Source of the DNA: Clostridia bacterium
GTDB lineage: Bacteria; CBDUZB01; JAGLHV01
Assembly (NCBI GenBank): GCA_030595925.1
Contig: JAUVLC010000017.1
Span: forward strand, 1-34,264
Reading direction: 5' to 3'
Length of the DNA: 34,264 bases
Each line of letters opens with the position of its first letter. Positions within the stretch are counted from its first letter, which is position 1. This document shows positions 5,481 to 11,900 of this stretch, piece after piece. A model generated the notes under the pieces. That model searched no databases, was not told where the DNA came from, and saw only the letters and a program-made list of their open reading frames with translations. The translations under genes were made by a program, and so were the position numbers.

Positions 5481-5519
5481 GGGGACGGAGTTGAGTTGGT
5501 TGACTCAAGAGGCTTAAAA

Positions 5520-8312
5520 ATGGGAGAGAAAAAAGTCGTTTACATTACGGGGCCTCCCGGATCAGGAAAAACTGATTACCTTTATAAAAATCTAAAAGAA
5601 ATAATAAAAAGCAAAAAGGCAAAACCTGAGGAAATTCTTTTTTTTACTTTTAATGATAAGATAGCCGAAGAAGTAAAAGAAAAGCTTATTAAATGGACGC
5701 AGGAAGGATTTGCCGAACTCTGGATTAATAGTTTTTCTTCTTTTTGTAAAAAAATCCTTAGAGATAATTATTATCAGTTATCCGCCTTACCGCAAAAAAC
5801 ATTTCTTGGCCCTAATTTTCAGATAATCGGAGGGATGGAAGAAAAATTAGTTCTTAAAAGAATCTTGGAAGAAACTTCTCTTGATTTAAAATTTTATGCT
5901 AAGGCAAAGTCTTCTGTTTTTTTTATTAATGAAATGGTAAACTTTGTTGATTTAATGAAACAAAATCTCCATAAACTTGAACGGCTGAAAGACGAAGGCG
6001 GAAAATTTGCGGAATTAGAAAAAATTTTTTATAAATATAATACTCAACTTCACAAAAGTGATTATCTGGATCTTCGCGATCTTACCCTGCAGACAATTGA
6101 TTTATTTAAAGGAAGAAAGGATGTATTTGAGACCTATAAAAATAAATTCAAGTATGTTTTAGTGGATGATTTTGAGGATATTGATTATCAGCAATTTCGA
6201 CTCCTGCAAATTTTTGCTGATGATAAAAGTAACCTCATAATAGCCGGAAACGTTAGTGAAAGTATTTTTTCTTTTCGGGGAGCAAGACCGGAAGAAATAA
6301 AGAAAAAATTTATTCAGCAATTCAATCCGCAGGTTATAAACATTTCCCCTAAATCAAATATTTCCCCGGTTGAAATTTTACCTTATAAATTTGATACCGG
6401 AAAAGAAGAAAGTTTTTTTATTGCCCGCCGGATCTATAAATTAATAAGAGAAAAAAATAAAAAAGGAGAAGCCTTATGTTATAAGGATTTTCTTGTTCTT
6501 TCCCGGGATATAGGGAAAGAGATAGATAGTTTAGTCAATGCGTTGTCGTTTTACCGGATTCCCTGTACAGTACTGGGGGGAACAGGGTTTTTCAAGCAAT
6601 CGGTAATTATTACTCTTATTTCCGTTTTACAGGTAATATATAAATTTAAGAAGAAAACCCTTTCTAATTTTCATATTATTTGGGCCCTAACTACGTTAAA
6701 TTTCTGCATAGATAAAGTAGATATGGAAAGATTGGTTACGTTGAGTGAGAAAAAAAATAAAAACCTGTTGGAAATTTTTGGAGAATTGAAAAATTCTTCG
6801 TTTCCTTATTTAAAAACCCGGACCCGGGATATCCTTGCTGAATTTGTAGAGAAAATAAAAGAGTTTCAACAAAGTAAAACAGAAAAATCGCTGGAAGAAA
6901 TTCTCTATAAAATATATTTGGATTTTGGTTTTCTTCTGCAAAGTAGAGATGATAAAAAAATAGCCGGACAGCTTAATTATTTTAATGAAATAATTAAAAA
7001 ATATCAAAGAATAGAAAACCGGTTTTCCGGCAAAAAACTGGACTTTGACAAGTTTATGGAGAACTTGCAGGGATTGATGTCTTCATACGGACGGGAATTA
7101 GGTATTCAATTGGAAGAAGAAGAGGATGCTGTAAAAATAATGACGGTCCAGCAGGCTAAGGGAAAATTTTTTAAGGTAGTGTTTGTTACCGGATTAGTGG
7201 AAGGGAAATTTCCCAGGCAATATAAAGAGGATCTTCTTTTAAATAATAAGGAAAAAGAATTTTTAGGGCTTAAGCCGTTAATAAAATCAGTAGAGTATAT
7301 AAAAGAGGAAGAAAAGATTTTTCAGGTCGCTCTCAGCCGGGCAAGGAATATGCTCTATTTAACCTGTGCAAAAAGATATGATTCACAAAGAGAGCAAGAA
7401 ATATCCGGATTGCTGGTGGATTTTTTAGAAAAAGAGGGAAAAAAATTTCTTTCGGTTGATGAAGAAATTTTGACTTATGATGATTTACTGGGATTGCTTT
7501 TGCGTGACGGTCCAAATATGGAACTTGAAGAATGTTTAAAAAAAGATAGAAATAAATTTTTGTTTTACCAATGGATTAAAGAAAAATACTCGCTTGCGAA
7601 CTTGTATGATAAAGTTGAATTACCTCAAAATTTTTATTTTACCCCTTCCAAAATAAAGACATACCTTGATTGTCCCGCTAAATTCTTTTTTCGGTATTGT
7701 TTGAATATTTTTAGTCCTCCTCAACCTGCCCTTTTTTTAGGCATAGTAATTCATCGGATACTGGAGTTGTTTCATAAAGAGTATGTGACTCCGGCACAAT
7801 TACAGGATAAGGCAATAGCCCGTAATTTAGATGGAATAGTCAGGAAGGTTTGGCGGGAAGAAGCAAAAAATTTTGAAACCAGGTTTGAAAAAAAGATATA
7901 CGAGCAGGAAATATATAATATTTTAGCCCGTTATCTAAAATTGGAAAAAACAAGAACTTTTTTGAAGATATCAAAATGTGAAGTACCTTTTAAGTGGGAG
8001 ACGGAAGGATTTCGCTTTAAAGGAAGAATAGACAGGATAGATATAACCGAGGATTCTTCCTGTGAATTGCTCGATTATAAAACTACCAAAGCGTTTGCTT
8101 ATCAGGGAGATACCCTTTGGAACAAATGGATTAAAGGAAAAACAGATTTTCAGCCGGTAATTTACTTGTTGGGGGCAAAAGAAATTGTAGAGGATAAAGT
8201 TTGTGCGTTTAGTATTTATTGGTTAAAGAAAAAAACCGGTAATGATTTTAAAACAACACTCAGGATATTAACTGACGGGGAAAAGGAACCCGCTCAGAAT
8301 AAAAACAAATAA
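5520..8312 (+). CDS. UvrD/AddB-like helicase-nuclease (C-terminus frameshifted)
   Basis: This is one half of a probable AddAB/AdnAB-type double-strand-break resection machine. From the ATG at 5520, Walker A GPPGSGKT is at residues 11-18. A motif II relative (VLVDDFEDID) lies near 215 and a motif III relative (SESIFSFRGARPE) near 250. A motif VI relative (VALSRARN) lies near 610. The C-terminal PD-(D/E)XK nuclease begins with the first Fe-S cysteine in YLDCPAKFFF (about 717), and its catalytic core is GRIDRIDI plus ELLDYKT (about 840-860). The ORF ends at 8312, but the family's last three Fe-S cysteines are encoded just downstream in the -1 frame (entry at 8303-8455). A TTG at 5496 is in frame; ATG 5520, preceded by AGAGG, is preferred. 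The paralogue at 8983 is the likely partner. Confidence 0.85.
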   Translation: MGEKKVVYITGPPGSGKTDYLYKNLKEIIKSKKAKPEEILFFTFNDKIAEEVKEKLIKWTQEGFAELWINSFSSFCKKILRDNYYQLSALPQKTFLGPNFQIIGGMEEKLVLKRILEETSLDLKFYAKAKSSVFFINEMVNFVDLMKQNLHKLERLKDEGGKFAELEKIFYKYNTQLHKSDYLDLRDLTLQTIDLFKGRKDVFETYKNKFKYVLVDDFEDIDYQQFRLLQIFADDKSNLIIAGNVSESIFSFRGARPEEIKKKFIQQFNPQVINISPKSNISPVEILPYKFDTGKEESFFIARRIYKLIREKNKKGEALCYKDFLVLSRDIGKEIDSLVNALSFYRIPCTVLGGTGFFKQSVIITLISVLQVIYKFKKKTLSNFHIIWALTTLNFCIDKVDMERLVTLSEKKNKNLLEIFGELKNSSFPYLKTRTRDILAEFVEKIKEFQQSKTEKSLEEILYKIYLDFGFLLQSRDDKKIAGQLNYFNEIIKKYQRIENRFSGKKLDFDKFMENLQGLMSSYGRELGIQLEEEEDAVKIMTVQQAKGKFFKVVFVTGLVEGKFPRQYKEDLLLNNKEKEFLGLKPLIKSVEYIKEEEKIFQVALSRARNMLYLTCAKRYDSQREQEISGLLVDFLEKEGKKFLSVDEEILTYDDLLGLLLRDGPNMELEECLKKDRNKFLFYQWIKEKYSLANLYDKVELPQNFYFTPSKIKTYLDCPAKFFFRYCLNIFSPPQPALFLGIVIHRILELFHKEYVTPAQLQDKAIARNLDGIVRKVWREEAKNFETRFEKKIYEQEIYNILARYLKLEKTRTFLKISKCEVPFKWETEGFRFKGRIDRIDITEDSSCELLDYKTTKAFAYQGDTLWNKWIKGKTDFQPVIYLLGAKEIVEDKVCAFSIYWLKKKTGNDFKTTLRILTDGEKEPAQNKNK

Positions 8313-8455
8313 AATGGCTCAGTACTTCGGAATTGGAAGAATCTAAAGAAAGTTTATTGCAGATTAGCAGGGAAATTATGGAGGGGGAATATAAGCCTAA
8401 ACAGGGATTTAATACCTGTAAAAATTGTGATTTCCGCTGGCTTTGCGAATCCTGA
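8303..8455 (+). pseudogene. out-of-frame C-terminus of the upstream helicase-nuclease (Fe-S motif)
   Basis: In the -1 frame relative to the upstream gene, an open stretch reads KWLSTSELEESKES and ends TCKNCDFRWLCES before TGA at 8453. C-x2-C-x5-C is exactly the Fe-S triad expected at the end of AddB-type nucleases, and the fourth cysteine lies in the upstream frame. Adding one A to the A-run around 8301-8305 joins the frames without a stop. This is therefore a one-base loss, either a sequencing error or a real mutation. Confidence 0.8.
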
Positions 8456-8483
8456 GGCCCGGGATAATAAAAATATGAAAAGT

Positions 8484-8520
8484 AATTTCCCCCTTTGAAA
8501 AAGGGGGTTAGGGGGATTTA
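8484..8520 (+). repeat. left copy of C-run/G-run inverted repeat
   Basis: The sequence runs from a C5 block through TTTGAAAAAGGGGG to TTAGGGGGATTTA. Its reverse complement matches 8785-8820 over most of about 35 bp. It is also locally self-complementary (CCCCCTTT with AAAGGGGG). Such elements commonly sit beside or inside DUF559 genes. Confidence 0.75.
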
Positions 8521-8569
8521 GATAAAAGACGGTTAAAGACAAAGACAAACTTTCACTGTCTCTTCACCT

Positions 8570-8824
8570 TAATCCTTTCACTTTACTGATTGGTGGACAG
8601 GCTCCCGCAAGAGGAGAGGAAACAAAACAAAGATTGTAATAGAAGTGGATGGATCGCAACATAAGGAAACAGATCAGGAACAAAAAGATCTGCAACGAGA
8701 TATATATTTGAAGAACGAGGGATTATATATATTGCGTTTTAACAATCTACAAGTTTTGCAAGAACTAGATTCTGTTATGGATAAAATTCCCCTAGCCCCC
8801 TTTTTCAAAGGGGGGAAACCATAG
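8570..8824 (+). pseudogene. DUF559 (Vsr-like endonuclease fold) remnant
   Basis: An open stretch without a start codon reads KIVIEVDGSQHKETDQ, then LQRDIYLKNEGLYILRFNN, ending before TAG at 8822. This is the C-terminal half of a DUF559 protein: the (I/V)EVDGSQH core and the RFNN-x-V tail are diagnostic. The N-terminal half is missing; upstream of about 8570 the frame is closed by a stop. The last residues (PLAPFFKGGKP) are encoded by the right inverted-repeat copy. It is a degraded passenger of the insertion. Confidence 0.7.
8785..8820 (-). repeat. right copy of C-run/G-run inverted repeat
   Basis: Reads AATTCCCCTAGCCCCCTTTT followed by TCAAAGGGGGG, the reverse complement of 8484-8520 with a few mismatches. 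Together the two copies bracket the DUF559 remnant like imperfect terminal inverted repeats. Confidence 0.75.
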
Positions 8825-8947
8825 GGTAATTCTTTAAAAAGGGGGGAGGACGACGAGAACACAAAACTAAACAAATCAGTGACTTCGTTCCTATACGGGT
8901 ATTCTCGTTAATAAATTATACAAATTATAAACTAAATGTTAAACATT

Positions 8948-8976
8948 TTGGACATTACTATAAAGTATGAGATAAT
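8948..8976 (+). promoter_or_regulatory. sigma70-type promoter abutting the second helicase start
   Basis: TTGGAC (8948-8953), 17-nt spacer, GATAAT (8971-8976). The expected transcription start falls at about 8983, on the ATG itself, and there is no ribosome site. The -10 box lies in the 17-bp direct repeat, while the -35 box belongs to the inserted DNA. Confidence 0.5.
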
Positions 8977-8982
8977 AAAAAT

Positions 8983-11900
8983 ATGAATAAATTAACCGAT
9001 GAACAAATTACAGCAATAAATCAGATTGAAGGAAAGGTCTGCCTTAAGGCCGGTGCCGGTACCGGAAAAACACTGGTTTTAACCAATAGATATATCCGGA
9101 TATTAAAAACCTTGCTTAAGGAAGGATATGTTTTAGAAGATGCTATTATGAGTATTGTGGCTGTAACCTTTACCAAAAAAGCAGCTAACCAGATGCGGAT
9201 GAAAATAAAGGAAAATCTTATTGAATTTCCTAATCTGGCAGCTGTTTTATCCGGTGCTTACATCAGCACAATAGATGCTTTTTGCCTTAGACTTTTAAAA
9301 GAAAATGCTTTTTTAGTCGGAATTGATCCGGACTTTGTAATTATGGAGGAAATAGAAAGTAAGCTTTTATTTTTAAAAGAAGCAAAAAATGTTTTTAATT
9401 CCCAGGATTTACCCGCAATATCTTTCAATGTAGGCATGGATTTCTTTCTGAGAGAAGTGTATTCTTTTATCCGCCGATTGAAAAATAATGCTATAACCCC
9501 TGTTATGTTTAAGGAAAATATAGAAAAAATAAATAATTTAAATGAGAAAAAAAAATTAGGCAAGGTTATTTTTTGCCTTTATGCCGCTTATGAGGAGAGA
9601 TTAAAAAAGGAGAATAAATTTGATTTTCAAAGTATTCTTTTAGCCGGATTATCGTTGCTGGAGAATAAGCAGATAAAAGAAAAATATAAAGAGTTTTTTA
9701 AATATATTCTGGTAGATGAATATCAGGACACTACTTTTTTGCAGGATAAGTTGTTGAGGGAATTATCTTCATATAGTGGAAATTATTTTGCGGTAGGGGA
9801 TGTGAATCAATCTATCTATGCCTTTCGTGATGCCCGTCCGGAAAACATGATGAATTTTGATCAGGAAACAAAAAAAGAAGGGAAAAGTCTTTCTTTAACT
9901 ACTAATTTTCGTTCTTTTGATGAGATTTTGAAATTAAGTAACCAATGTTTTCAGGAACAAATGCCTTATTTTCAACCGCTTCATTCCGGCAGGAATAAAG
10001 ATTCTCTTTGCTGTGAAATAAATCTTGCTTGTAGTGCGGAGGAAGAAGCGGAATTTATTGCCCAGCGAATTTTGGCGCTATTAGAAAGAGATCCCGATCC
10101 GCTAAAATGTAAGGATATTGTAATTCTATTTAGGGGAATACGAAATATTGGTATTTATGAAGAAATTTTGTATAAACATCATTTGCCTTTTATGACCGTC
10201 GGAGGCTCCGGATATTACGCTCGTCCGGAAATAAAAGATATTATTTCGCTTTTAGGGGTTATTAATAATCCTTTTGACGATATAAATTTAGTGAGGGTCC
10301 TTAGGGGGCCAGTATACAGGATTAGTAATTCTACCTTACAAAAATTAGCTAATTTAAAACCCGGTGAAGATGTTGAAGATGAGGGAAAAGATATAAAAGG
10401 TAAAGGGAAATATCCTATTTATGATGCCTTGGGAAAGATGAAAAATTTAAATATTGGGGAGGAAGAAAAGGCTTCTTTAAGAAGATTGAGGGATTTCATT
10501 GATGAATTTATTTACCAAAAAAACAAATTACCGTTAGGCCGGTTTTTATATTGCCTGATTCAAAATAGCGGTTATACGAGCTATGTACAAACACTATCTC
10601 CCATAGAGCGAAGAAGAAGTCTGGCTAATATTGATAAATTTTACCAATTAGTATGCCGGTTTGAAGAGAGAAATTTGATCCCTGTTTTAGAAGATTTTAT
10701 TGCCTATCTTAAAGAGGTTATTAGTCAGGAGACAATGGAAAGCGAAGAAAATCATGAAATAGAAGATGTTATCCAGTTAATGACAATTCATCAGGCTAAG
10801 GGTTTGGAGTTTCCGGTGGTTTTTGTGGCTAATATTTCTCCGGACAGTTTTCCTTCCAGAAGCCGTACCCCCAGATATTATTTTGATGCAAAAGAAGGTT
10901 TTTTGTGTAAAGACATCAAAGAGGAAGAAGAAAAAATAAAGAAAAAAAATAAAGAGCGATTTAGCTGTGAAGAAGAAAGACTTCTTTATGTGGCAATGAC
11001 CAGGGCTAAAGAACGCTTGATTCTTTCCGGAAGAATAAAAGAAGACGGAAAAGGAAAAAGTAGAAAAAGCCGTTTTATTGATTATTTCTTTAAGATGCAG
11101 GAGGCTCAATTAACATTAAAAGAAGAATATGGCAATTTATTAATTGAAGCGAATAAGTCCTTTCCGATAAAGGAAGAATGTAGAGAAAAAAAGTACCGGG
11201 GATATTCTTTCAATCCGGAACAAAAAATAAACAGGAAGGAAATTGAGCAGTCTTTTGATTTTAAATATTGTTCTTCTGAGGGGGAAAAAACAAAAAAATC
11301 TTTTAGTGTTACTCAGCTTGCTGTTTTTGACCAGTGTCCTTTACAGTATAAATACCGCTATGAAATAGGTGTTTTAGCCAATAGTAGTCCTAATGAAAGT
11401 GTTGCTACGGGAAAAATAGATGAAACGGTTTTAGGTATGATAATGCATAAAATTTTACAGGAATTTACCTTATTTGGTGAACAGGAAAAATGGGATGATA
11501 AAAAAACATTTTCCCGATTTAAGAAATTAGCCAAAACCTACGGAATTCCTTCGGAAGATGCGGATTCTCTTTATAATAATCAAATACAGGAAATATTTAA
11601 TAAAATTATAAAAAGTGATTATAACCCTTCCCTTAAAAAAACAACGGCTGTGGAAAAAAGCTTTCATTTAAATCTTAATGGGTTTTTAATTAAAGGAACG
11701 ATAGACCGTATAGATTGTCGGGATAATGGAAGCTTTGAAATTATTGATTATAAAATGAGTAAATCAATTAAAGTAAATCGATATGATTTCCCGATGCAAT
11801 TGTATGGAATAGGTGCGGAGAACGTGTTGGGTTTAAAGCCGGTAGATAAACTAACCCTTTATTCTTTGCGTCAGGGGCAGGGATTTTCTTTGGAGATAAA

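Follow-up and report, generated by a model that had tools for sequence, protein, structure and literature searches.

Positions 8469 to 8959 of the window (the whole stretch of 34,264 nucleotides that was analysed) are, in the explanation that as a whole is strongly favoured, a copy of a DNA transposon that is old and left-truncated and that had been inserted 23 bp upstream of the start of a helicase gene. An insertion between two helicase genes had originally been predicted at this place, and this part of the prediction was upheld. The inverted repeats with C/G runs that had been described within it were likewise found (8486-8519 and 8784-8817, 91%), as was a DUF559 remnant between them, which corresponds to Pfam positions 51-104. 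The features of the region are the following.

8463-8479, forward strand: left copy of a 17-bp direct repeat, of which 8469-8479 (AAAAATATGAA) is the left subterminal sequence of the transposable family; 8463-8468 (GATAAT) has no match in it
8469-8959, forward strand: left-truncated transposable-element copy, recognized by homology to dispersed copies; the left terminal inverted repeat is missing
8489-8519, forward strand: left class-II intrastrand-triplex motif (putative), CCCCCTTT-GAA-AAAGGGGG-TTA-GGGGGATTT, third strand towards the nuclease gene
8621-8788, forward strand: DUF559 remnant comprising the C-terminal half (KIVIEVDGSQH...LRFNNLQVLQELDSVM); the conserved E23 and D52 belong to the N-terminal half, which is missing
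8785-8814, reverse strand: right class-II intrastrand-triplex motif (putative), inverted, third strand towards the nuclease gene
8836-8852, forward strand: purine G-run aaaaaggggggaggacg
8947-8959, forward strand: right terminal inverted repeat TTTGGACATTACT, from the family alignment
8960-8982, forward strand: native host sequence of 23 bp, from the element end to the helicase ATG
8960-8967, forward strand: expected target duplication ATAAAGTA, of which the left partner was lost
8971-8987, forward strand: right copy of the 17-bp repeat; native DNA of the helicase start, including the helicase ATG (8983)

When the genome of the window was searched with 8463-8987, 107 matches were obtained; the combination of inverted repeats and DUF559 recurs elsewhere in this genome, and more than 30 copies of the repeat family are present. 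An alignment of 57 loci (39 from the same genome and 18 from others) revealed a dispersed family with GGTAGTGTCAAAA ends, the left end being GGTAGTGTCAAAAATTAGATGAAAAAATATGAAAAGTAATTTCCCCC and the right end ...AAACTAAATGTCAAATACTTTTGACATTACC. Intact members have the termini GGTARTGTCAAAA...TTTTGACAYTACC and 8-bp target duplications, and paired ends within loci give elements of 121 to 1,810 bp. The duplications, which were read by eye from the element flanks, are exact in four members (AAAACGAG, TCTATTAA, TATTTGTA and ATTTGAGA) and contain one mismatch in four further members. The window copy belongs to this family by its homology to the dispersed GGTARTGTCAAAA-ended copies in the window genome (G000), by its right terminal repeat at 8947-8959, and by the presence of a start codon about 20-27 nt after its right end (23 bp to the ATG at 8983). 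It was filed as truncated, because the left terminal repeat and the 8-bp target duplication, both present in its relatives, are absent.

The 1,810-bp member (L116) has the same ends and contains a frameshifted DDE transposase with traces of rve_3 and IS240-type domains. This decayed transposase remained below the NCBIfam cut-offs (18.6 versus 125 bits for the IS6 model) and was therefore not placed in a named IS family. The DDE_Tnp_IS240 domain trace and the 8-bp target duplication resemble IS6/IS240 elements, whereas the score far under the IS6 cut-off, the Cys-rich N-terminal part and the size of about 1.8 kb do not. A DDE transposase like the one in L116 is likely the mover. Among 386 sampled genomes, homologues of it were distant or partial and occurred in three others; an intact copy was not found. 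IS256 (PF00872) was rejected as the mover, the single match being an ISL3-like transposase without these ends. Two relatives of the truncated window copy (L031 and L025) share terminal repeats with L116, carry a passenger gene and have no transposase, as is the case for mobile insertion cassettes (MICs). The family resembles MICs and MITEs in that its ends are shared with a transposase-bearing element, in that its members have no transposase of their own and in its target duplications; the passenger gene (DUF559) of some members is a further likeness to MICs. It differs from both in that its distance and orientation relative to start codons hardly vary and in that the passenger is bracketed by triplex motifs. 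Rfam gave no match within the element. In L118, two matches to the c-di-GMP-I-GGC riboswitch (21-104 and 2324-2464) were just under the gathering score (58.6 and 55.8 versus 59 bits). Besides, the short members L118, L106 and L124 share an internal GGGGGAGG purine run, which resembles a Shine-Dalgarno sequence and to which the run at window 8836-8852 is similar.

The cargo of the window copy scored 49.1 bits against the DUF559 model (PF04480; Pfam cut-off 20.6). In intact members of the family the DUF559 product has a length of about 109-119 aa. The residues E23, D52, H69 and D78 are invariant in DUF559 proteins, and this EDxHD/Vsr-like catalytic set is complete in the intact copies and incomplete in the window remnant, from which the half with E23 and D52 is gone. 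As its N-terminal half is missing, no nuclease activity is expected of the remnant. A predicted DUF559 model (mean pLDDT 87) matched 3hrl (NGO0050), 3r3p (the catalytic domain of the homing endonuclease I-Bth0305I) and, weakly, 1vsr (Vsr). In a PDB sequence search with DUF559, 3hrl was retrieved at 4e-27 and the remaining matches were at chance level. The predicted fold and the invariant residues are thus like those of the EDxHD homing endonuclease I-Bth0305I and of Vsr; unlike for I-Bth0305I, homing and a cleavage site are not established for DUF559, and the window copy is without its N-terminal half. Two loci of the window genome (L122 and L123; G000:C49 and C73) have a long frame in which a DUF559/MTES_1575-type domain is fused to the start of a UvrD-type helicase.

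The DUF559 nuclease and inverted triplex motifs were shown to be associated across many bacterial phyla. A scan of the genome collection with an alignment of three intact DUF559 members yielded 80 loci from many phyla, and their flanks carry inverted copies of a hairpin with a G-run tag. In this tag the purine arm is mirrored, A being faced by A or T; this is the layout of a class-II intrastrand triplex. Both window motifs have the pyrimidine arm, the purine arm and the mirrored purine/T third strand of this class and are putative triplexes; triplex formation has been reported in vitro for TMECO, not for the window sequence (Holder et al., 2015; PMC4666352). A motif was located within about 200 bp in 78 of the 80 loci, on both sides in 50, at a density of 5.40 motifs per kb versus 0.14 beyond 500 bp. 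The second sample consisted of the stronger Pfam matches in 386 genomes, namely 64 standalone loci, five long-frame ones being excluded. Here a motif was present within about 200 bp in 48 loci and on both sides in 28, and the density was 3.57 versus 0.115 motifs per kb, 31-fold over distal sequence. Shuffled flanks contained no motifs. The exact C5T3 form of the motif occurred in 30 of the 386 genomes (zero for the reversed control), and DUF559 was present in 17 of these 30 versus 71 of the 356 others (Fisher p = 3e-5, uncorrected for relatedness).

It could be argued that the motifs near DUF559 are mere terminators or general intergenic repeats without a special link to the nuclease, since hairpins are able to terminate transcription and most motif copies within a genome are not beside DUF559 genes. 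This explanation keeps some credibility but is unlikely for several reasons. The enrichment within about 200 bp is 31- to 38-fold over distal sequence of the same loci, and the motifs bracket the gene in inverted orientation with the third strands pointing inward rather than outward (75:21 in the Pfam sample). Furthermore, the third strand covaries with the arm, which a terminator does not need: 167 of the 414 unique arm-tag pairs, with 36 distinct purine arms near DUF559, were perfect mirrors, compared with a mean of 38 and a maximum of 52 in 500 tries of tag swapping, in a test in which hairpins were read on both strands, so that about half cannot carry a tag, and in which related loci are not independent. 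Finally, the boundaries of homology coincide with the motifs. Between organisms that share only the cassette of 380-700 bp (206 ordered pairs from 50 loci, not independent), the distance from the end of homology to the closest outer edge of a motif was at most 10 bp in 148 of 192 cases on the left and 132 of 179 on the right, the choice of the closest edge being biased towards small offsets. In one locus (L247; G377:C1:759391-763717) the motifs beside the DUF559 gene are repeated in tandem every 111 bp, with starts at 761779, 761890, 762001, 762112 and 762223. No good inverted repeat was found in the flanks of Acinetobacter DUF559 genes (L172, L176, L178 and L179; scores 9-10).

The triplex motifs near DUF559 are like TM/TMECO in having a pyrimidine arm, a purine arm and a purine-motif third strand, but they occur here as inverted pairs around a nuclease gene, unlike TM/TMECO as described by Holder et al. 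(2015; PMC4666352), who never found genes providing mobility near triplex motifs. In E. coli MG1655 (K-12), ycjD is a DUF559 gene and a known TMECO is situated about 170 bp away from it. These loci have in common with REP/REPIN sequences and RAYTs that a gene stands between short palindromes in inverted pairs and that many other copies of the palindromes are solitary. In contrast to that system, the repeats have triplex potential and the protein is a nuclease of the PD-(D/E)XK/EDxHD type; the gene is DUF559 and not that of a tyrosine (Y1) transposase. A link between DUF559 and triplexes was not found in the literature searched, which covered a minority of the subscription papers, and is provisionally regarded as new.

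Whether the cassette moves was approached by comparison of related genomes. In one genus, the place of the cassette in G362 is taken by a short junction in G392, and in G391 and G398 the flanking genes are adjacent there; this presence and absence supports movement and does not prove it. In a genus of another family, a second copy of the cassette, at a different place, has ends similar to those of the window family (L289; also L227), which is suggestive of movement. The ycjD locus of E. coli was rejected as an empty-site test, because the eefRABCD operon stands there instead in strains without ycjD (PMC12817139) and these do not offer a clean empty site. Plasmids and phages, considered as sources of empty sites, gave few DUF559 matches, all of them distant. 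In Legionella, segments that contain a transposase together with DUF559 have been reported as hotspots of recombination (PMC12308824).

Cassettes of this kind, with a nuclease gene (decayed in the window) between inverted triplex-forming motifs as cargo, are probably selfish units with a REP- or homing-like behaviour, whose nuclease would act on the motifs that flank it. We tentatively propose, as a possibility that falls short of being probable, that DUF559 is the engine of a widespread minimal selfish element with triplex-motif ends, that the nuclease would recognize and nick its own folded motifs while copies of the unit spread by repair or inside transposons, and that the solitary triplex repeats of bacteria (those of E. 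coli included) are what remains of this element, in the way that REPs are to RAYTs. How intrastrand-triplex repeats arose and spread has so far lacked an explanation, to which a nuclease that is consistently bracketed by them offers a direct handle. The window locus is itself only a decayed copy, and its value is that of a route to the family.

The right ends of the family, measured mainly in one genome, face the Shine-Dalgarno sequence in a single orientation, and the distance from them to the start codon that follows is nearly constant. At the discovery loci, a start codon that has a Shine-Dalgarno-like sequence comes after 28 of the 38 right-type end matches, in almost every case 20-26 bp away. 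For left-type end matches this was 1 of 31, and that one (L110) has a right-end inner sequence; random positions precede a start codon, within a 62-nt range, in 13% of cases. An open start codon 21-27 nt after TTAC is present at 20 of the 23 ends with right-type inner sequence, the mean distance being 24.4 with an sd of 1.2 (20 ends). At column 16, in the Shine-Dalgarno sequence, a G occurs in 19 of these 20 right ends, the window site being the sole exception. The second set comprised 40 further, previously unused places that were fetched after the rule had been seen. With a filter for exact TTTTGACAWTAC matches without left-type inner sequence, a start codon was found 20-29 nt away in 25 of 30 (median 24); as this filter is looser than that of the discovery loci, the two rates are not to be pooled. 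Two of the five failures have a non-family inner sequence (L332 and L334), and the other three have an ATG at the expected place that failed the 60-codon open-frame test (L340, L341 and L348). In both sets some end matches were identified as non-family or left ends from their inner sequence. Similar spacing was observed for copies in a genome of the same genus and in genomes of another family (L064, L065, L070, L289 and L227).

The triplex motif is ruled out as the reason for this placement, because the rule also holds for short members that have no such motif. We infer that the rule reflects target choice by the transposase and does not come from survival alone. Insertions in genes are expected to be selected against and the intergenic gaps of operons are short, so that insertion could be random, with survivors that spare the Shine-Dalgarno sequence and the upstream gene. 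That the fixed spacing results from such selection and not from targeting is nevertheless distinctly unlikely. Selection alone predicts neither the single orientation (left ends at most 1 of 31) nor a spread of 1.2 nt in distance, and reversed insertions or insertions farther upstream should survive as well. If targeting by the transposase is the true explanation, insertion at a fixed distance and in one orientation before ribosome-binding sites would be an unusual target rule for a bacterial transposon, because it keeps the translation start intact and puts the element in the leader of the gene. Nothing on Shine-Dalgarno-directed transposition was found in a literature search that covered a minority of the subscription papers.

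There remains the exact 17-bp direct repeat GATAATAAAAATATGAA. As had been noticed, its copies are at 8463-8479 and 8971-8987, and the helicase ATG falls inside the second one. Even with one mismatch allowed, it has just these two sites in the 2.6-Mb genome. Exact 17-mers that recur anywhere in the window number four versus 0.68 expected under a Markov model and are thus not rare, but chance does not readily explain the placement of the copies around the segment. The original prediction of a recent 491-bp insertion that duplicated a 17-bp target site and regenerated the start of the helicase gene took account of an exact flanking repeat absent from the rest of the genome, but is very improbable, as intact members have longer ends and 8-bp duplications, family sequence accounts for 11 of the 17 bp, the right terminal repeat stops 11 bp short of the right copy and the element is decayed. 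A 17-bp target duplication is thereby rejected because of the family ends and the 8-bp duplications of the relatives. The start was never interrupted, the element end being 23 bp upstream of the ATG. Collapse of the repeat does give the 19-nt spacing that had been calculated (TGA at 8453-8455; ATG of the left copy at 8475), but this is not the ancestral arrangement, because with the right end 23 bp before the ATG the sequence between them is native. A recent date is unsupported, since the N-terminal half of DUF559 and the left end have both been lost. No helicase orthologue was found in two genomes of the same genus, which hence offer no orthologous empty site.

Under the transposon explanation, the 17-bp repeat would be younger than the insertion, the left terminal repeat having been lost in a later rearrangement. 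This would have used the 11-bp AAAAATATGAA common to the left end of the element and the helicase start and would have left a longer match. We infer that it is the most economical origin of the repeat. GATAAT in the left copy is unaccounted for by family sequence; at a per-base match probability of 0.28, six more matching bases at one position have a probability of about 5e-4. Template switching, or deletion plus coincidence, may both fit the loss of the left end. On the other side of the element, the upstream helicase/PD-(D/E)XK gene (5496-8312) has an apparent frameshift near its end (window 8290-8456), and its other frame runs to the TGA at 8453 with a Cys-rich C-terminus (FNTCKNCDFRWLCES); it appears to be a pseudogene or to contain an assembly error.
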